Source of the DNA: Methylomarinum sp. Ch1-1
GTDB lineage: Bacteria > Pseudomonadota > Gammaproteobacteria > Methylococcales > Methylomonadaceae
Direction of reading: 5' to 3'
Assembly (NCBI RefSeq): GCF_030717995.2
Contig: NZ_CP157743.1
Location: forward strand, 1,364,001-1,428,000
Length of the DNA: 64,000 bases
Made by a program: the position numbers and the translations under genes. The notes below the pieces were generated by a model. The model had not been told where the DNA came from. It did not search any database and saw nothing but the letters and a program-made list of their open reading frames with translations. Of this stretch, positions 2,977 to 62,795 are shown in pieces. Within the stretch, counting starts at the first letter, position 1. Every line of letters starts with the position of its first letter.

Positions 2977-3066
2977 GTGGTCTAAGGAATGGCAGCAATT
3001 CCCAGTTTGTAACTATTCAGTATCTTTCAGGGTTTAGGGAGTAGGCCATTGATTTCTCGGGACGCG

Positions 3067-3139
3067 TTCACCCAGCACCTAAATACCCTAGATTATTGGC
3101 TATGATTAATAATCTTCGTTAATTTAGGTGCTGGGTGAA
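3067..3139. repeat. Family B inverted-repeat segment in C copy 1
   Basis: Perfect 18-bp inverted repeat TTCACCCAGCACCTAAAT at both ends around an AT-rich centre (ATTATTGGCTATGATTAAT) unlike the centres of the B copies inside A elements. It is absent from the same place in C copy 2. Confidence 0.8.
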
Positions 3140-3178
3140 TACTTCCCTGTAAGCTCTGACTGCAACGTCCTGTTGCAG
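3140..3178 (-). other. Tandem ANGGA hairpin module in C copy 1
   Basis: On the minus strand, hairpin TAC-AGGGAA-GTA (3140-3151) and hairpin CTGCAAC-AGGAC-GTTGCAG (3160-3178). The loops match the ANGGA core bound by CsrA/RsmE; function is inference. Confidence 0.5.
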
Positions 3179-3288
3179 ACAGCCCGATAAATCAATAACC
3201 TACTCCCTCTGATAAAACTACGCTGAATAATTACCCCAGTTTAAGTATTTTTGCAGGGTTTAGGGCATGGGGTGTGTCTGTCTAGGAG

Positions 3289-3353
3289 CCCAGCACCTAA
3301 ATTTTCCTGGAATGTAAAATATCGTCCGGTAGCCATGGAATTTAGGTGCTGGG
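3289..3353. repeat. Family B segment in A copy 1
   Basis: CCCAGCACCTAAAT and its complement flank the centre CTGGAATGTAAAATATCG, which is shared with the B copies at 23235, 36924 and 50541. The outer TTCA is missing here. Confidence 0.75.
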
Positions 3354-3357
3354 TAAA

Positions 3358-3396
3358 CCCATCCCTGGGGGCTTGACGGCAGCATCCTTGCTGCCG
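3358..3396 (-). other. Tandem ANGGA hairpin module in A copy 1
   Basis: On the minus strand, CCC-AGGGAT-GGG (3358-3369) and CGGCAGC-AAGGAT-GCTGCCG (3377-3396). The 39-nt layout is the same as in the C elements, but with different paired stems. Confidence 0.5.
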
Positions 3397-3517
3397 ACAT
3401 CCTCGCCAAACACACCCCATGCCCTTTTTGAACGCCAAAGTGGGAATTGCTGAAGAAATGGCCTCGACGCCAATAAATACCTTATAATTTGTGCATTTTT
3501 GCATTCCCTTTATCAAC

Positions 3518-6905: not shown

Positions 6906-7062
6906 GTAACTATTCAGTATCTTTCAGGGTTTAGGGAGTAGACCATTGATTTCTCGGGACGCGTGAATACATCCATGTAAGCTCTGACTGCAACGTCCTG
7001 TTGCAGACAGCCCGATAAATCAATAGCCTACTCCCTCTGATAAAAATACGCTGAATAATTAC
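6906..7062. mobile_element. Family C MITE copy 2 (157 bp) with 8-bp target duplication
   Basis: GTAACTATTCAG/CTGAATAATTAC inverted ends, flanked by exact duplication AAGTACGC (6898-6905 and 7063-7070). The long inner palindrome (AGGGAGTAG...CTACTCCCT) ends in two hairpins. This is the form without family B and serves as reference for the family. It lies between pilU and the divergent PP-loop gene. Confidence 0.92.
6968..7006 (-). other. Tandem ANGGA hairpin module upstream of pilU
   Basis: On the minus strand, TAC-ATGGAT-GTA (6968-6979) and CTGCAAC-AGGAC-GTTGCAG (6988-7006). The GGA strand is the pilU sense strand, about 95-130 nt before the pilU start. TACATGGATGTA is very close to the CsrA consensus RUACARGGAUGU. 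Confidence 0.5.
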
Positions 7063-8446: not shown

Positions 8447-9592
8447 GTGGTGGTCAGCCAAGATGCAGACCAGCTTGCCAAGCTGAAAACCAGAGTCTCT
8501 TATGTTGCGGCGGCCGTCAATGTTTTTTTAACGCTGATTAAAATCAGTGTCGGCGTTTTCGGACAGTCGGCCGCGTTGATCGCCGATGGTGTCCATTCGC
8601 TGTCCGACTTGTTGAGCGATCTGTTCGTCATCGTCGCAATAAAAATGGGCAGTCGCGAAGCCGATTATGAGCATCCGTATGGGCATCGCCGTTTTGAAAC
8701 GATCGCCACGGTATTGCTGGGGCTGGGCTTGATCGTCATCGCTGGCGGCATCGCCTGGGATGTAAGCGAACGGATATTGCATCCGGATCGGTTGCTGATT
8801 CCCAGCCGGGAAACGATGGGCATCGCGTTGATTTCGATATTGGCCAATGAATGGCTGTATCAATACACCCGCCGCATCGGAGAGCAAACACGCTCCAAAC
8901 TGTTATTGGCCAACGCCTGGCATCACCGCAGTGACGCCATCTCTTCGGTAATTGTGTTGTTTGGCATTGCAGCGGTGCTATTGGGTTATCCAGCCGCCGA
9001 TGCCTTCGCCGCGATCATCGTCGCGTTGATGGTCGCTAAAATTGGTTTGACGCTGGTGCTGGAGAGTATCAATGAGCTGGTCGATACCTCGTTGCCCGAA
9101 CCGTTGGTTAACGAGATTCGGCGCGCAATTAAAACCACCGACGGGGTGCGGGGCATTCATTTATTGCGTACGCGTCAAATGGGGGAGGACGCCTATGTCG
9201 ATGCGCATATCGTCGTCGATCCGCGCATTACCGTTTCGGAAGGTCATATGATCGGCGATATCGTCAGGGATCAATTGAAAAGCGAGTTCGATGATATCGT
9301 CGATGTGTTGGTTCATGTCGACCCAGAGGACGATGAATTTAAGAAGGTTAACGAGCCTCTGTTGACCCGCAAGGAGATACAAACACATTTGGAGCATTAT
9401 CTGGGGGAGTTTTGGCCGTATATCGATGAATTCAGAGTCCATTATTTGGATGGTTTGTTGGAGCTGGAAGTGATGCTGCCGCCGATGTTGTTCAGTCAGC
9501 AGCAGCAGGTTGAAAAGATCAAACAACGCTGTGCGTTGTTGGAAAAAAAGGTCGATAAGGTCGCCAAGATATATGTGTTTTTTAAAGCCTGA
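8447..9592 (+). CDS. Cation diffusion facilitator (CDF) family metal efflux transporter
   Basis: 381 aa, the CDF fold: about six transmembrane helices in the first 210 residues and a cytoplasmic ferredoxin-like C-terminal domain. Metal-site signatures are DGVHSLSDLLSD in helix 2 and HHRSD in helix 5, the His/Asp pattern of Zn/Fe/Mn-type CDF proteins. The C-terminal domain is extended beyond residue 300. The start is GTG at 8447, one base after the tusA stop, with GGAGG 9 nt upstream. It is likely cotranscribed with the sulfur-relay pair. Metal specificity cannot be read from the sequence. Confidence 0.9.
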   Translation: MVVSQDADQLAKLKTRVSYVAAAVNVFLTLIKISVGVFGQSAALIADGVHSLSDLLSDLFVIVAIKMGSREADYEHPYGHRRFETIATVLLGLGLIVIAGGIAWDVSERILHPDRLLIPSRETMGIALISILANEWLYQYTRRIGEQTRSKLLLANAWHHRSDAISSVIVLFGIAAVLLGYPAADAFAAIIVALMVAKIGLTLVLESINELVDTSLPEPLVNEIRRAIKTTDGVRGIHLLRTRQMGEDAYVDAHIVVDPRITVSEGHMIGDIVRDQLKSEFDDIVDVLVHVDPEDDEFKKVNEPLLTRKEIQTHLEHYLGEFWPYIDEFRVHYLDGLLELEVMLPPMLFSQQQQVEKIKQRCALLEKKVDKVAKIYVFFKA

Positions 9593-9625
9593 GGTTCGGG
9601 CAACAGAATTAGAGTGGATTTTGAG

Positions 9626-10840
9626 ATGGCTGTAGGAAAATGTATCTTTCCGCCTATGCATCAGGTGAGCGGCATTCGGCTGGGAACCTGCAACGCGGGC
9701 ATCAAACAAAGCGAACGGGACGATATTCTGCTGATCGAAATGGTCGAAGGCGGTCAATGTGCGGCGGTCTTTACCCGCAATGCCTTTTGTGCGGCGCCGG
9801 TGACGGTCGCTAAAAAGCATTTGGGTCGGCAGCCGCGTTGGCTGTTGGTCAATGCCGGCAATGCCAATGCCGGCACCGGCGAGCGCGGCATGCAGGACGC
9901 TTTGCGCAGTTGCCGCGAACTCGCCGCGCTTGCAGGCGGTGAAGCCGCGCAGGTGTTGCCTTTTTCCACCGGTGTGATTGGAGAAAATTTGCCTATCGAT
10001 AAGCTGACTGCGGCGCTGCCAAAGGCGCTAGCCCAGCTTGCCGGCGAGAACTGGAGCCGGGCGGCTAAGGCGATCATGACGACCGATACAGTCGCCAAGG
10101 GCGCATCGACAGTGATCGAGATAAACGGCCGGCCGGTGACGATTACCGGCATCTCCAAGGGCTCGGGTATGATTCAGCCGAATATGGCGACGATGCTCGC
10201 TTTTGTCGCCACCGATGCAAAAATCAGTCAGCCGTTATTGCAGCGCTGTTTATCGGCGGCCGTGGAACAGTCTTTTAACCGCATTACCGTCGACGGCGAT
10301 ACCTCGACCAACGACGCCTGCGTGTTATTGGCCAGCGCCTGTGCCGAGGCGCCTGAAATCATGCCGGATAGCGAGGAATATGCCGTTTTTTCGGCGGCTG
10401 TGCAGACAGTTTGCCAGCAATTGGCTGAGGCGATCGTCAGAGACGGCGAGGGCGCCACTAAGCTGATCCGGATTATTGTCGAGCAGGCGGAAAACGATGC
10501 GGAAGCCGTCTTGGTGGCGAAAACCATTGCCCATTCGCCGTTGGTGAAAACGGCTTTTTTCGCCAGCGATCCGAACTGGGGACGGATTCTTGCCGCCGTC
10601 GGCCGCGCCGGTCTGGAAAACCTCCAGTTGGAGCAGGTGGAAATCTACCTCGATGATGTTTGTATCGTCGCGCATGGCGGTCGGGCCGCGGCTTATACCG
10701 AGACTGCAGGACAGGCTGTGATGAACCAGGAGGAAATATGCGTGCGCGTGGTTTTAGGAAGAGGGCGGGCGTGCCAGCAGGTATTAACCTGCGATTTTTC
10801 CTATGATTATGTCAGGATCAATGCCGAATACCGGACTTAA
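9626..10840 (+). CDS. argJ: Bifunctional ornithine acetyltransferase/N-acetylglutamate synthase ArgJ
   Basis: ArgJ transfers the acetyl group from N-acetylornithine to glutamate, closing the cyclic arginine pathway. 404 aa; the self-cleavage site sits in KGSGMIQPNMATMLAF, where Thr189 becomes the N-terminal nucleophile of the beta chain. The ATG at 9626 gives the usual MAV start; the GTG at 9614 is less likely. It is 33 bp after the CDF gene and overlaps the Nudix-ThiE gene by 38 nt. Confidence 0.96.
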   Translation: MAVGKCIFPPMHQVSGIRLGTCNAGIKQSERDDILLIEMVEGGQCAAVFTRNAFCAAPVTVAKKHLGRQPRWLLVNAGNANAGTGERGMQDALRSCRELAALAGGEAAQVLPFSTGVIGENLPIDKLTAALPKALAQLAGENWSRAAKAIMTTDTVAKGASTVIEINGRPVTITGISKGSGMIQPNMATMLAFVATDAKISQPLLQRCLSAAVEQSFNRITVDGDTSTNDACVLLASACAEAPEIMPDSEEYAVFSAAVQTVCQQLAEAIVRDGEGATKLIRIIVEQAENDAEAVLVAKTIAHSPLVKTAFFASDPNWGRILAAVGRAGLENLQLEQVEIYLDDVCIVAHGGRAAAYTETAGQAVMNQEEICVRVVLGRGRACQQVLTCDFSYDYVRINAEYRT

Positions 10841-23086: not shown

Positions 23087-23234
23087 GGATTTCTGTAGAT
23101 TTTTCTTGATGATAAATAAAATTATTTTAACCGGAAAATGAGCGAGTCGTGCTTTTTTACCCTAATTCCGGCAATTCCCAGGTTGAGTATTTTGCGGTGT
23201 TTAGGGCATGGGGTGTGTCTGTCGAGGAGCGCCG

Positions 23235-23305
23235 TTCACCCAGCACCTAAATTATGCTGGAATGTAAAATATAGTCCAGTAGCCATGGAAATTTAGGTGC
23301 TGGGT
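23235..23305. repeat. Family B segment in A copy 2
   Basis: TTCACCCAGCACCTAAAT and complement around the shared centre CTGGAATGTAAAATATAG. Confidence 0.75.
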
Positions 23306-23308
23306 AAA

Positions 23309-23347
23309 CCCATCCCTGGGGGCTTGACGGCAGCATCCTTGCTGCCG
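23309..23347 (-). other. Tandem ANGGA hairpin module upstream of valS
   Basis: On the minus strand, CCC-AGGGAT-GGG (23309-23320) and CGGCAGC-AAGGAT-GCTGCCG (23328-23347). The GGA strand is the sense strand of the holC-valS transcript, about 220-260 nt before valS. Confidence 0.45.
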
Positions 23348-23414
23348 ACATCCTCGCCAAACACGCCCCATGCCCTTTTTGAACGCCAAACTGGGAATTG
23401 CTGCCCTAATTCCG

Positions 23415-23606
23415 GCAATTCCTAGTTTGGGCATTTTAGCGGTGTTTAGGGCCTGGAGATCGTCTGTCTAGGAGCGCTTCGCCAAACACTACCCATACCT
23501 CGCCGGCGTCGAGGGAAAGCAAGGGTCGGCGTAAAACAGCCATTGCAGTTGCTAGGGCAATCAGGCCCGCGGTTCCCGCTAAACACTCAAGGGCACAAGC
23601 ATCGCC
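23415..23606. repeat. Truncated family A repeat and unassigned spacer
   Basis: GCAATTCCTAGTTTGGGCATT and TAGCGGTGTTTAGGGCCTGG match the left arm of family A. After a short CGCCAAACACTACCCAT remnant of the right arm near 23480 the match fades. The rest is GC-rich and holds nothing recognised. Confidence 0.6.
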
Positions 23607-26744: not shown

Positions 26745-27808
26745 ATGTGTTGACCGCCTATATAGTCAAGGAAGTCATCAAGGGTTCTTTGATCGCCTTG
26801 TTGCTGTTGTTAACCTTGTTCAATCTATTTACTTTCAGCGATGAGTTGAAGGACTTGGGGAAGGGCAGTTATGGCTTGAAGGAAATTCTGCTGTATTTGG
26901 CGCTGACATCGCCCCGAGTCTTTTACGAGCTGATCCCCTCGTCGGCTTTACTGGGCAGCTTGTTCGTGGTCGGTGCGATGGCTAACAATCGGGAAATCAT
27001 CGCGATGCGGGCGATCGGTCTGTCGGTGTTTTGGGTGATCCGGGCGATCATGCTGGCGGGGCTGATTCTGGTATTGATTTCGCTGGCGGTGGGCGAGTTT
27101 GTGGCGCCGTGGGCTGAGCGGACCGCGCAAATGATCAGAACGACGGCGCAAAATGAAAAAGTGGTGATGCATTCCCGCTATGGCATGTGGCTCAGGGAAG
27201 GGAATAATTTTATCAATGTCCGACAGATTCACGAAGATGGCTTGTTGGGTGATATCAGTATTTACCAATTGAATGAGCAGTTACGCTTGGACTTGCTGAA
27301 ACATGCCGAGACGGCGCGATATTTGGGGCAGCATCAATGGCGTTTGGAAAAAATTCGCTGGTCGGAGGTGTCGAGCCGGCAAGTTTTTGCGGGCCGGACG
27401 TCGAGTGAGCTTTGGAAAACCTCGATCGATCCTGACTTGTTGAATATCGTTGTGGTCAAAGCGGATAATTTGTCGCTCTATGATTTGTATATGTATATCG
27501 GCTTCTTAAAGGAAAACAACCAAAAATCCCAATCTTTTGAGTTGGCGTTTTGGAGTCGGCTGATCAATCCGCTGGTGACTTTTGTGATGCTGATGGTGTC
27601 GGCGCCCTTTGTCATTGGCATCAGGCGCGGTATAGGCGCCGGGGGGCGGATGATGATCGGCATTATCATCGGGATGACCTTCAATATTTTCGATAAGATT
27701 GCCGGTCATCTGGGCTTGGTTTACGGCTTCAATCCGATGCTGATGGCCATTTTGCCCAGTGTGCTGGTGTTTTGTGGGGCGGCGTATGCGGTCAGTCGGG
27801 TGAGGTAG
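26741..27808 (+). CDS. lptG: LPS export permease LptG
   Basis: 355 aa partner of LptF in the LptB2FGCADE lipopolysaccharide transport machine. Three N-terminal helices, a periplasmic jellyroll (about residues 135-260) and three C-terminal helices (FVMLMVSAPFVIGIRRGIG). The ATGA overlap with lptF indicates translational coupling. Confidence 0.95.
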   Translation: MNVLTAYIVKEVIKGSLIALLLLLTLFNLFTFSDELKDLGKGSYGLKEILLYLALTSPRVFYELIPSSALLGSLFVVGAMANNREIIAMRAIGLSVFWVIRAIMLAGLILVLISLAVGEFVAPWAERTAQMIRTTAQNEKVVMHSRYGMWLREGNNFINVRQIHEDGLLGDISIYQLNEQLRLDLLKHAETARYLGQHQWRLEKIRWSEVSSRQVFAGRTSSELWKTSIDPDLLNIVVVKADNLSLYDLYMYIGFLKENNQKSQSFELAFWSRLINPLVTFVMLMVSAPFVIGIRRGIGAGGRMMIGIIIGMTFNIFDKIAGHLGLVYGFNPMLMAILPSVLVFCGAAYAVSRVR

Positions 27809-28325: not shown

Positions 28326-28434
28326 AGCAATTCCCAGTTTGAGCGTTTTAGCGGTGTTTAGGGCCTGGGTGAACGGCGTTCCTCGCCAAACACCCCCCCC
28401 CAAGCCCTCTTTGTTATCTAAATTGGGAATTGCT
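28326..28434. repeat. Family A repeat copy 3, short form with B scar
   Basis: 109 bp with AGCAATTCCCAGTTTG ends. The centre GGGTGAACGGCGTTC keeps only the rim of a family B segment and no hairpin module. An unusual C9 run follows. Confidence 0.8.
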
Positions 28435-28537
28435 ACGATGAGAGTATCAATAAGGCCTTTTATTTTTGGTGTTTTAAATGATAGAGTAAAATTTTGTCAA
28501 AATAATAACAACCAAAGGTGAATGGAAGGTGAATAAA

Positions 28538-36758: not shown

Positions 36759-36923
36759 GGAAGTTTTGTTTTTTAAAGGGGGTGGATAAATATTATCAAA
36801 TATCCGTTTAATTTATAGCATAAAATGGCCAGTAATTCCCAGTTTGAGCATTTTTGCAGCAATTCCCAGTTTGAGCATTTTTGCTGTGTTTAGGGCATGG
36901 GATGTGTCTGTCGAGGAGCGCCG

Positions 36924-36992
36924 TTCACCCAGCACCTAAATAATTCTGGAATGTAAAATATAGTCCAGTAGCCATGGAATTTAGGTGCAGGG
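36924..36992. repeat. Family B segment in A copy 4, right arm damaged
   Basis: TTCACCCAGCACCTAAAT on the left; on the right GGTGCTGGG has become GGTGCAGGG, with loss of the following CCC-ATCCCT-GGG hairpin. Confidence 0.7.
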
Positions 36993-36999
36993 GGCTTGA

Positions 37000-37019
37000 C
37001 GGCAGCATCCTTGCTGCCG
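37000..37019 (-). other. Single AAGGAT hairpin upstream of fliW
   Basis: CGGCAGC-AAGGAT-GCTGCCG on the minus strand, the fliW sense strand, about 240-260 nt before fliW. The partner hairpin is deleted. Confidence 0.45.
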
Positions 37020-37250
37020 ACATCCTCGCCAAAAACACACTCCATGCTCTTTTTGAACGCCAAACAGAAAATAGCTGGCGTTTTAGCGATGTTTAGGGTT
37101 CCCCAGGAGCGCCCGGTATTTGTTCTCCGTGGTAGACTCCTCGATATATAACAACCCACTGTTGTAAAGTTACACCGGTCGTGATCAACGACTATGCCAA
37201 TCCGCTATTGTTCGTTGCAACGGCAAAGGCTTCTGTGTATTCTGCTGCCC

Positions 37251-53626: not shown

Positions 53627-53740
53627 AGCAATTCCCAGGTTGAGCATTTTGCTGTGTTTAGGGCATGGGGTATGTCTGTCGAGGAGCATCCTCGCCAAAC
53701 ACACCCCATGCCCTTTTTGAGCGCCAAACTGGAAATTGCT
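53627..53740. repeat. Family A repeat copy 6, minimal form
   Basis: 114 bp with AGCAATTCCCAGGTTG left end and complementary right end; arms GGGCATGGGGTATGT / ACACACCCCATGCCC. It has no B segment and no GGA module (GAGGAGCATCCTCGCC at its tip), and so shows the basic A backbone. Confidence 0.85.
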
Positions 53741-53916
53741 GCGGTAGATGCGAATTGCGCGGCTAAATTTGCGCCTACAATTACAATTGCCGACAGAATA
53801 ATAGTGTATGGGGCTGTACAAGTTCGGAAACCAGAAGAGATCACCCTGAAGAGTATGAAGATTGAATGCTATCCTTCGTGTGCTTCATGGTCTTCGGGGT
53901 GAATGATCGATGTTAC

Positions 53917-54078
53917 GTAATTATTCAGCGTAGTTTTATGTGAGGGAGTAGGTTATTGATTTATCGGGCTGTCTGCAACAGGACGTTGCAGTCAGAGCTT
54001 ACATGGAAGTATTCACGCGTCCCGAGAAATTAATGACCTACTGCCTAAATCCTGAAAGATACTGAATATAATAGATAC
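53917..54078. mobile_element. Family C MITE copy 3 (162 bp), inverted orientation
   Basis: GTAATTATTCAG left end and a decayed right end (CTGAATATAATAGATAC). Flanked by exact duplication GATGTTAC (53909-53916 and 54079-54086). It lies just past the pqqE 3' end. Confidence 0.88.
53973..54011 (+). other. Tandem ANGGA hairpin module in C copy 3
   Basis: Plus strand: CTGCAAC-AGGAC-GTTGCAG (53973-53991) and TAC-ATGGAA-GTA (54000-54011). This is the only module with the GGA strand on plus, since the element is inverted. Confidence 0.5.
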
Positions 54079-54097: not shown

Positions 54098-55222
54098 CTA
54101 AAAGCGCTTGGAATTCTTGCTGTTGCGGAAAATCAAAGGCTTTTCTTCGGCCGCTAAGGCCGTTTCTTTGGCCGAATCGATCGCTTCCTGAATGACATGG
54201 TGATGCGGCGATTTGCTGCACACCGGATCGGCGTTATACATGTCTCCGGTCATCAGGTAGGCCTGGCAGCGGCAGCCGCCGAAATCTTTTTCCTTTTCGT
54301 CGCAACTGCGGCAAGGCTCCTTCATCCAGTCATAGCCGCGGAAGAAGTTGAACGCTTTAGATTCGTTCCAGATCTCCGCGATGCTGTAATCTTTGACATT
54401 GGGGCAGTCCAGACCCGGTAGTTCGCGGGCGGAATGACAAGGCAGCGCGACGCCGTCCGGGGCGATGGTCAGGAAGGTGGTGCCCCAGCCGTTCATGCAG
54501 GCCTTGGGGCGGTCTTCGTAATAATCCGGTATCACGTAATAGATTTTCATTTTGCCGGCGACCTTTTCCTTATAGGCCTGGGCGATTTTTTCGGCTTCCT
54601 CGAACTGTTCCTGGGTCGGCAATAATAAATCCCGGTTGGCGTGGGCCCAGCCGTAATACTGGGTATTGGCCAGTTCCAGATAATCGGCGCCCAATGCCTC
54701 GGCCATCGCCAAAATCTCTGGCATTTGGTGGATATTCTCCCTGTGTATTACGACGCACAGCACCATCGGGTAGCCATGCTTCTTGACCAGTTTGGCGACT
54801 TCCTGCTTGTGTTGATAAGACTCGGTGCCGGCGATATGGTCGTTCAATTCCTGGGTGCTGGCCTGTATGCTGACCTGGATATGATCCAGCCCGGCTTGTT
54901 TTAATTCGACGATCTTGGCTTCGGTAAGGCCATAGCCGGAGGTGATCAGATTGGAGTAATACCCCAAATCCCGGGCGTGCCTGACTAGTTCGGGTAAATC
55001 CCGTCGGGTTAATGGTTCGCCGCCGGAAAAGCCCAGTTGTACCGCGCCCATCTGCCGTGCCTGGCTCAGTACGCGTTTCCAGTCTTCGGTGCCCAATTCA
55101 TCCGGATACTTGGCGTAATCCAATGGATTGGAGCAGTACGGACACTGCAGCGGACATTTGTAGCTGAGTTCCGCCAGCAGCCAGCGCGGCGGCGTGATGT
55201 TAGGGTTGTTGGATCCAGCCAT
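54098..55222 (-). CDS. pqqE: PQQ synthesis radical SAM enzyme PqqE
   Basis: About 374 aa; with PqqD it links Glu and Tyr side chains of PqqA, the first step to the PQQ cofactor. Radical SAM cluster CPLQCPYC (CxxxCxxC), the SAM-binding GFSGGEPL, and a C-terminal SPASM region with the Cys clusters CHS, CRSCDEK and GGCRCQ. Start chosen at 55222 (MAGSNNPN); the ATG at 55237 is an alternative. Both overlap pqqD, so coupling is likely. Confidence 0.96.
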
Positions 55223-55563: not shown

Positions 55564-55627
55564 GAAATGCGTAACTATTCAGCATAAAAATGCTTTTACT
55601 ATCAGTCGCTTGCCCCAGAAGACGCCG

Positions 55628-55700
55628 TTCACCCAGCACCTAAATAAACGAAGATGATTTATCGCAGCCATTAGCCTATGGAATTTAGGTGCTGGGTAAA
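55628..55700. repeat. Family B segment in C copy 5
   Basis: TTCACCCAGCACCTAAAT and ATTTAGGTGCTGGG around a centre (AAGATGATTTATCGCAGCC) unlike the other copies. Confidence 0.75.
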
Positions 55701-55739
55701 TATGTCCCTATAGGCTTGGATGCGACATCCCTGTCGCAT
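55701..55739 (-). other. Tandem ANGGA hairpin module upstream of pqqD
   Basis: Minus strand: ATGCGAC-AGGGAT-GTCGCAT (55720-55739) and TAT-AGGGAC-ATA (55701-55712). The first contains ACAGGGATGT, an exact match to the CsrA core ACARGGAUGU. Same sense as the pqq operon. Confidence 0.55.
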
Positions 55740-55857
55740 ACACTTCTTCCACAAGCAATTGATAGTAAAAGAAATATTTTCTCAGTATCAAACTGAATAG
55801 TTACCGAAATGCTTGTGTTTAAGGGCGGTTCTTTAATGATGCGTCCAACTTATCATG

Positions 55858-62638: not shown

Positions 62639-62795
62639 GTAACTATTCAGTATCTTTCAGGGGTTTAGGGAGTAGGTCATTGACTTCTCGGGACGATGGA
62701 AATGCAGATTTTGCAGGAGCAAAAATCTGCCTGTTGCAGACAGCCCGATAAATCAATAATCGACTCCCTCTGATAAAAATACGCTGAATAATTAC
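62639..62795. mobile_element. Family C MITE copy 4 (157 bp) with 8-bp target duplication
   Basis: GTAACTATTCAG/CTGAATAATTAC ends, exact flanking duplication AATCGAGT (62631-62638 and 62796-62803). Its tip differs: GCAGATTTTGC-AGGA-GCAAAAATCTGC, an AGGA loop on the plus strand, replaces the first hairpin and part of the second. Confidence 0.92.

Follow-up and report, generated by a model that had tools for sequence, protein, structure and literature searches.

What keeps the loop letters of a small two-hairpin unit alike while the stems that carry them change from one MITE family to another? The question is raised by the window analyzed here, a 64-kb stretch of DNA (G000:C2:1364001-1428000; 51.5% GC) within a 4.77-Mb genome, where a first-pass annotation had listed several such units with ANGGA loops and suggested that a mobile element spreads CsrA sites. 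We found that this observation is right, and larger than the first-pass annotation could see.

Copies of the element in the window

A covariance model, R1, built from 32 genus-level cores, matched seven window copies with E values from 5.9e-18 to 1.5e-12 (Table 1). Because three of the 32 training rows are themselves window copies, these matches locate the copies and are no independent test. The copies listed by the first-pass annotation are present where it had placed them, seven of them being matched by R1, and the stems it had named recur as CTGCAAC, CGGCAGC, and ATGCGAC in the hairpin HP1 and as TAC, CCC, and TAT in the hairpin HP2. The GGA strand is the minus strand in all seven copies except that at 53960 (+). 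The statement that every loop holds ANGGA needs a small correction: HP1 of family A reads AGGAC and is without the N; in the family C core (55681-55752), the HP1 loop is AGGGAT and the HP2 loop AGGGAC. The description of the carriers as unrelated MITE families likewise holds in part, as family B has other ends, whereas families A and C share both an end, GTAAYTATTCAG, and 8-bp duplications. An eighth R1 match (54217-54294, E 0.0023), which has no HP1 loop, was left uncounted. Core-less remnants of family B MITEs were also seen at 28326-28436 and 23414-23505, with approximate ends.

Table 1. Elements, cores, and modules located in the 64-kb window
Feature	Position	Strand	Remarks
Family A MITE, 226 bp, core and H3	3009..3234	-	core match 3119-3191
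H3 hairpin module, 69 nt	3068..3136	.	missing in sister copies 6906 and 53917; boundaries uncertain within a few nt
Core, HP1 loop AGGAC, HP2 loop AGGGAA	3119..3191	-	R1 match; other strand of the closing stem located past H3
Family B MITE, core and H3	3236..3452	-	ends approximate
Family B core, HP1 loop AAGGAT, HP2 loop AGGGAT	3337..3409	-	R1 match
Family A MITE without H3	6906..7062	-	core 6947-7019 (R1); 8-bp duplication AAGTACGC on both sides
Family B MITE, core and H3	23171..23402	-	core 23288-23360 (R1); ends approximate
Family B MITE, HP2 deleted (the "half copy" of the first-pass annotation)	36858..37077	-	R1 match 36907-37032; ends approximate
Family B MITE without any core, stem closed directly	53628..53742	-	core-less site 53671; ends approximate
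Family A MITE, reversed orientation, without H3	53917..54068	+	core 53960-54032 (R1)
Family C MITE, 234 bp, core and H3	55571..55804	-	core 55681-55752 (R1)
Family A MITE, HP1 partly replaced by I1 sequence, HP2 lost	62639..62795	-	sequence reading

Anatomy and covariation of the core

The core is a three-way junction of ~50 nt, which consists of a closing stem (P1), HP1 with an ANGGA loop, and HP2 with an ANGGA loop and a TTYAC bulge. On the GGA strand, the order is P1, HP1, linker, GCC/GGC, HP2, TTYAC bulge, and the return of P1. HP1 is a hairpin of 7-9 bp with an A(N)GGA loop; the linker is TCAA or similar, with letters extending HP1; and a GCC/GGC stem of 3 bp precedes HP2, which most often reads TAC-ANGGAX-GTA. 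For P1, HP1, and HP2, alifold and the hand-made structure concur, while the GCC/GGC stem was missed by alifold. When single cores were folded, the 3-bp stem of HP2 was not predicted as modelled in some cores of families A, C, and D.

The complementary stem changes described in the first-pass annotation go beyond chance in the genus, class, and loop-blind sets, as compared with shuffles and slid controls. In the genus set (32 sequences), 93.2% of positions were paired and 15 of 19 pairs showed a double change, with 123 double-change cells as compared to 31.8 in shuffles and 3-24 in slid controls; further pair types, one of five measures, were not above shuffles in this set. The class set (58 loci across the order and class, with 63 matches) was 98.2% paired, with 17 of 19 pairs double-changed and 304 double-change cells (75.4 shuffled, 7-65 slid), and its loci lean to well-formed copies because each is the best match of its genome. 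The loop-blind set (28 matches, 18 loci) was 96.3% paired, with 178 double-change cells as compared to 45.8 shuffled; the alignments of this set and of the class set were fitted to the structure, which favors that structure. Slid controls in all three sets drop to 32-49% paired. The C-G pair that closes the loop is kept in 62 of 63 class-level rows for HP1 and in all 63 for HP2.

Loop letters read with a loop-blind model

To read the loops, we used a second model, R2, in which both loops of 43 class-level cores were set to N, the cores themselves having been found with R1. The model was run on four sets of DNA: 464 kb of the same genome (the window and regions chosen around copies), which gave 51 matches; genus loci totalling 622 kb, with 94; 18 distant loci, with 28; and 400 kb of the same genome taken at even spacing, with 23. 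These 196 matches make 44, 91, 28, and 20 distinct rows, respectively. Over all 196 matches, GGA was found in 158 of 167 HP1 loops and 175 of 185 HP2 loops of at most 8 nt, a tally that leaves uncounted 29 longer HP1 loops and 11 longer HP2 loops, mostly with an inserted module or with H3 drawn in. The hexaloops of HP1 (77 distinct cores) carry 2.00, 0.42, 1.61, 1.51, 1.80, and 1.44 bits at the positions A, N, G, G, A, and X, and those of HP2 (163 distinct cores) carry 1.81, 0.27, 1.80, 1.77, 1.81, and 0.48 bits. T fills the X position in 70 of the 77 HP1 hexaloops, so that X is less free there than in HP2. Even by a loop-blind model, the loops are thus of the CsrA/RsmE form that the first-pass annotation had recognized, with A and GGA fixed and N and X freer. 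An ANGGAX loop was present in 27 of the 99 perfect hairpins (198 when both strands are counted) with a hexaloop and a stem of at least 7 bp in the 464 kb of own DNA, many of the 27 being copies of one another.

According to the available excerpt of Duss et al. 2014, the high-affinity RsmE/CsrA site is an ANGGAX hexaloop placed directly on a stem, A and GGA are read specifically while N and X are variable, and AGGGA and AAGGA pentaloops likewise bind tightly (PMC4005645). By its letters, the core would present such a site, with an ANGGAX hexaloop (or an AGGGA or AAGGA pentaloop) directly on the stem.

MITE ends, IS66-type elements, and nested modules

The 8-bp duplications around MITEs of families A and C are AAGTACGC (6906), CATTTCTG, GATTTAAG, and GTTCATTT, and both families end in GTAAYTATTCAG. 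IS66 elements follow a rule of 8-bp target duplication. In the same genome, 24 stretches matched IS66-type elements, of which 12 (L260-L271, full or broken) were fetched; their ends are GTAATTATTCAG and GTAAGTATTCAC, and an 8-bp duplication was read in the single IS66 copy whose flanks were inspected (L260). As families A and C share their ends and 8-bp duplications with these IS66 copies, they look like IS66-moved MITEs, and judging from the ends they were probably moved in trans by an IS66-type transposase. Unlike a cargo of IS66-family MITEs only, the core also occurs in family B, whose ends differ (CAGCAATTCCCAG or close variants). When MITEs without a core were sought, a single clear example came up (window 53671); the motifs for families D, E, and F were too loose for use, and the short gaps of family G were chance matches. 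Since "empty" carriers seem rare, we do not claim that the core transposes by itself.

Further modules are set into the core. H3 (69 nt) lies in the TTYAC bulge; some copies in families A, B, C, and D have it and others do not, and family A has it in either orientation. At the same TTYAC site, it lies opposite ways round in the window (3068-3136) and in another family A copy (L045:14396-14673), as if inverting. I1 (51 nt) lies in HP1 loops of families A and D and their relatives and once inside another I1 (L054), and I2 (~51 nt) lies at HP2, once with an additional copy (L044). In the L054 case (9490-9867, family A), the second I1-like module sits within the AGGA loop of I1, which gives three nested hairpin levels. 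I1 itself has two hairpins on the strand opposite the core's GGA strand, one with an AGGA tetraloop and one with an ANGGAX hexaloop on a changing stem (TTGCC/GGCAT, ACGCC/GGCGT, GCGCC/GGCGC, CCGCC/GGTGG, and CCGTC with GATGG), while the core strand of I2 forms two NGGA hairpins in which AGGA is flanked by AGC/GCT, GGC/GCC, and GAT/ATC; the stems of both modules were read by eye.

In the loop-blind alignments, 24 of the 29 long HP1 loops hold I1 directly after GG and in one shared orientation. In those 24, the GGA loops of I1 do not share a strand with those of the core, as shown by a strict pattern for 23 and by eye for one variant. In family D, the I1 join is CATG-ACAG. For families A, B, C, and G, the gaps from one P1 strand to the other cluster at ~49-54, 102-104, 118-123, and 168-172 nt.

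Copy number, spread, and csrA in host genomes

Evenly spaced DNA of the same genome held 28 copies in 400 kb (E<=0.01), corresponding to ~330 (334) per genome with an interval of 222-483. The element was found in 88 of 151 genomes and 29 of 44 genera of the order sample (E<=0.01), and in 82 of 369 genomes and 74 of 272 genera of the class sample (E<=0.001; at most 13 matches scored per genome). R2 found it in 23 of the 398 genomes of the phylum sample, a sample given without the number of genomes outside the class, and all 23 belong to the same class. Among the matches listed for public genomes (at least 80 loci) were Methylomicrobium sp. wino1, Methylotuvimicrobium buryatense, a Methylomicrobium MAG, and unassigned gammaproteobacterial MAGs. 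One core gave no match in phages and none in plasmids; another core gave six partial matches in plasmids, the best in Marinobacter, and a strict pattern was found in one viral contig. In another gammaproteobacterium (L250:1501-2710), six tandem cores follow one another every 226-229 nt, with 12 ANGGA loops in 1.2 kb, and alongside them lies a palindromic repeat that we take to resemble Pseudomonas-type REPs. Beside another copy (L246:1010-1296), the Rfam family 5_ureB_sRNA matched with 118 bits (cut-off 40), which may just reflect a conserved gene.

A genome lacking csrA, which the first-pass annotation had named as a finding that would speak against CsrA sites, is not the case here: the same genome has a canonical csrA of 63 residues (PF02599, E 5e-27), which adjoins an aspartate-kinase-like ORF with AA_kinase and ACT domains. 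In the class sample, csrA was found in 76 of 82 element-bearing genomes as compared to 237 of 287 others (Fisher p=0.015, ancestry uncorrected). The six element-bearing genomes in which no csrA was found are G164, G225, G256, G497 (<90% complete), G279 (one weak match), and G351. The last of these is 98% complete and has 10 element matches, and it is a real point against the CsrA reading. Among 21 near relatives, csrA was not found in four, one of which (G013, 87% complete) bears the element.

Known relatives

By sequence comparison, the element is already known in part, the YPAL/RU-2 repeat and the TwoAYGGAY motif being its relatives. The excerpt of Delihas 2007 prints a 168-nt RU-2/YPAL repeat of Yersinia (PMC2759123), and the printed repeat contains the core: all four stems pair, both loops are ANGGAX, and 67 of 76 aligned columns are identical with the core of G725 (L255). 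The closing stem, HP1 with AAGGAT, GCC/GGC, TAC-ATGGAT-GTA, and TTTAC of this print are as in the core. In the excerpts available, YPAL/RU-2 is described as mobile, intergenic, and present in 60 regions of one chromosome (PMC2759123, PMC2229807), the Delihas review adds duplications of 3-26 bp and expression with upstream genes (PMC2229807), and the text of a survey of stem-loop families gives 101 YPAL sequences in Y. pestis (PMC2267715). As printed and described there, YPAL/RU-2 differs from the element in its length of ~168 bp, in its duplications of 3-26 bp as compared to 8 bp in families A and C, and in its outer arms, which are unlike those of the window copies (157, 226, and 234 bp, with other ends); CsrA is not named in these excerpts. 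As far as these sources go, the differing arms and length indicate that the core is shared and the whole element is not.

The consensus of Rfam family Ysr224 (RF02770) is, in the alignment, the reverse complement of the core, with TCC loops. At E<=1, Ysr224 had 56 matches in the same genome and 33-111 in five others (best 150 scored in each), lying on the strand opposite to the core matches with which they were compared, e.g., G000:C2:27167-27267(-) and 27161-27233(+). None of these scored as high as the cut-off (70), and the E<=1 level also brought matches in five of 14 control genomes. In the excerpt of a review, Ysr224 is among the most frequent annotated bacterial sRNAs and is temperature-responsive in Yersinia pseudotuberculosis (PMC9029176); on that account, its high ranking would be easily explained if Ysr224 is a mobile repeat.

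The link to TwoAYGGAY (RF01731) was found by searching that family by name. A 2010 table gives the human gut, gammaproteobacteria, and Clostridiales for this motif (PMC2864571, in excerpt), and the available part of Gardner and Eldai 2014 proposes that it binds CsrA (PMC4333381). Its alignment shares with the core HP1 with AYGGAY, CAAG, HP2 with AYGGAY, CGG, GUC, and the closing stem. The element likewise has two hairpins of AYGGAY type inside a closing stem, though its N and X are freer than Y, and it differs from the Rfam model, in which HP2 is long and has no TTYAC bulge. At E<=10, TwoAYGGAY matched four of six genomes, with the best score of 42.5 in G895 and 40.8 in the same genome as the window, and one of 14 controls also matched; the gathering score of 43 was exceeded in none of the six. 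Its match in the family C MITE of the window (55678-55803) is at chance level (E 9.35).

Other Rfam searches returned little. At gathering threshold, the whole window had no match, and by E-value six loci of the same genome gave chance-level names and one weak Ysr224 match. The CsrB family gave weak matches in three of six genomes of the genus and none over its cut-off. Decoy sRNAs of the CsrB/RsmZ type occupy a single locus. The decoys CsrB, CsrC, and RsmX/Y/Z have hairpins with GGA loops (PMC4005645, PMC4333381, both in excerpt); they are sRNAs with many sites, whereas the element is mobile, repeated at scattered places, and has two sites in each core. Judged by family match and by locus number, the element does not belong with sponge sRNAs of this type: it is a dispersed repeat, with CsrB over its cut-off in none of the six genomes and no gathering-level Rfam match in the window.

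Among open-licence papers, we found none tying YPAL or Ysr224 to CsrA, and the available portion of a 2026 preprint modelling CsrA binding across gammaproteobacteria mentions neither TwoAYGGAY nor mobile repeats (PMC12889724). New here are the link between YPAL, Ysr224, and TwoAYGGAY, the spread, and the exact modules with further NGGA hairpin pairs. The element is a modular variant of the YPAL/TwoAYGGAY kind, in part probably carried by IS66.

Strand and gene context

In the stems of well-paired matches, G-U pairs on the GGA strand outnumber A-C, with 51 as compared to 23 distinct contexts (p=0.0015) under a row filter that counts G-U as paired and 36 as compared to 16 (p=0.008) under a filter that ignores G-U, related copies being non-independent. 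This excess speaks for the GGA strand as the one that folds, be it RNA or single-stranded DNA. G-U pairs are scarce overall (14 of 1173 cells, alignment A2), which resembles a maintained DNA palindrome more than an ancient RNA. Folding energy was alike on both strands for the two cores that were folded both ways.

In the chosen regions, 55 copies were divided into 15 sense-tandem, 16 convergent, 13 divergent, and 11 antisense-tandem; 59 of 62 matches were used, the three weakest being omitted, with one inside an ORF and three at edges. In the evenly spaced regions, 27 copies were divided into 3, 6, 5, and 13, respectively, with one more at an edge. The upstream gene is co-directional in 31 of 55 and 9 of 27 copies, respectively, and no bias of gene orientation to GGA sense was found in the chosen and evenly spaced regions. 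Placement is intergenic in 55 of 56 copies of the chosen regions and in all 27 of the evenly spaced ones. ORFs for gene context were called by length only.

Discussion

From the sequence patterns, we consider a MITE-borne bivalent CsrA-site module, with loops under selection, to be the best explanation of the element, with a probability of about one half (0.52). No other single reading accounts for the loop rule as well as this one does, judged from sequence and with mixed strand evidence; our main ground for preferring it is the close fit between the loop letters and the published A(N)GGAX rule. The presence of csrA, the loop rule, covariation, the NGGA hairpins with changing stems in I1 and I2, and the excess of G-U over A-C speak for the CsrA sites suggested by the first-pass annotation; the idea is not new for the fold, having been put forward for TwoAYGGAY in 2014. 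Points against them are that gene orientation shows no bias to GGA sense, that Ysr224 is annotated on the complement strand, that the GGA loops of I1 face the other way, that folding energy prefers neither strand in the two cores folded both ways, that HP2 is not always predicted, that G-U pairs are few, and that G351 gave no csrA. Under this explanation, a structured three-way junction of ~50 nt with two ANGGA(X) loops rides in the middle of a MITE, and transcription of the GGA strand, e.g., by read-through from a neighbor, would expose two high-affinity CsrA/RsmA sites ~24 nt apart. With two sites per core RNA, one CsrA dimer could be held, and selection on the bivalent site would most likely explain why the loop letters are constant in spite of drifting stems. 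The effect might be local control of the stability or translation of host mRNA; given hundreds of copies, some CsrA might also be titrated.

The same patterns can be read as the work of DNA. The GGA strand may act as a folded single-stranded DNA in which the GGA loop is the recognition or insertion site of an enzyme, for transposition or for the modules. We keep this alternative, which we think unlikely though worth serious weight, because of the insertion of I1 into loops and the lack of orientation bias to GGA sense. I1 sits directly after the GG of the HP1 loop in the 24 loops read, also in family A copies, a second I1-like module lies inside an I1 loop, the module sizes are exact in the spacing of P1, and the long palindromic stems vary in sequence among genomes. 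However, MITEs of families A and C have terminal repeats and 8-bp duplications like full IS66 elements, so that a hairpin is unneeded for their movement; the free N and X suit a known RNA-binding protein; and the I1 join in family D is CATG-ACAG, with I2 and H3 placed outside GGA.

A plain stable RNA hairpin, which would serve mRNA stability, RNase processing, or attenuation as with ERIC and YPAL and whose GGA loops would matter for a reason other than CsrA, appears improbable to us. It agrees with the nearly exclusive intergenic placement of the copies (55/56 and 27/27), with the folding of both strands, and with the proposals for ERIC and YPAL in the excerpt of a review (PMC2229807), but it leaves unexplained why both loops keep A and GGA fixed where N and X are freer, and why I1 and I2 have NGGA loops. 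We give very little credence to the absence of any function, with pairing kept by quasi-palindrome correction in replication and loops conserved merely because the copies are young. The very rare G-U pairs, the near-perfect stems, and the many copies with similar scores within a genome speak for it; yet across 74 of 272 sampled genera the loop and junction letters have stayed the same, even though double changes are seen in 17 of 19 stem pairs, and a single loop has four fixed letters next to a freer N and X. This last alternative is already weakened.

In gammaproteobacteria, CsrA acts as a global regulator whose activity depends on how many sites compete for it. If hundreds of mobile copies each add at least two near-optimal sites, transposition would rewire or load a global network directly. 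A wider picture, which we put forward as tentative and doubt more than we believe, is that of a class-wide mobile family whose conserved cargo would be a bivalent CsrA-binding RNA and not a gene. The core, I1, and I2 would then be three nested NGGA-pair cassettes of ~50 nt, the hundreds of copies would scatter intergenic CsrA sites and load the CsrA network, and YPAL, Ysr224, and TwoAYGGAY would form one mobile superfamily of CsrA sites. If CsrA does not bind, the data would point instead to a conserved system of DNA hairpins into whose loops cassettes are inserted exactly, and such a system would itself be unusual. If it does, the separately filed YPAL, Ysr224, and TwoAYGGAY would gain one joint function.
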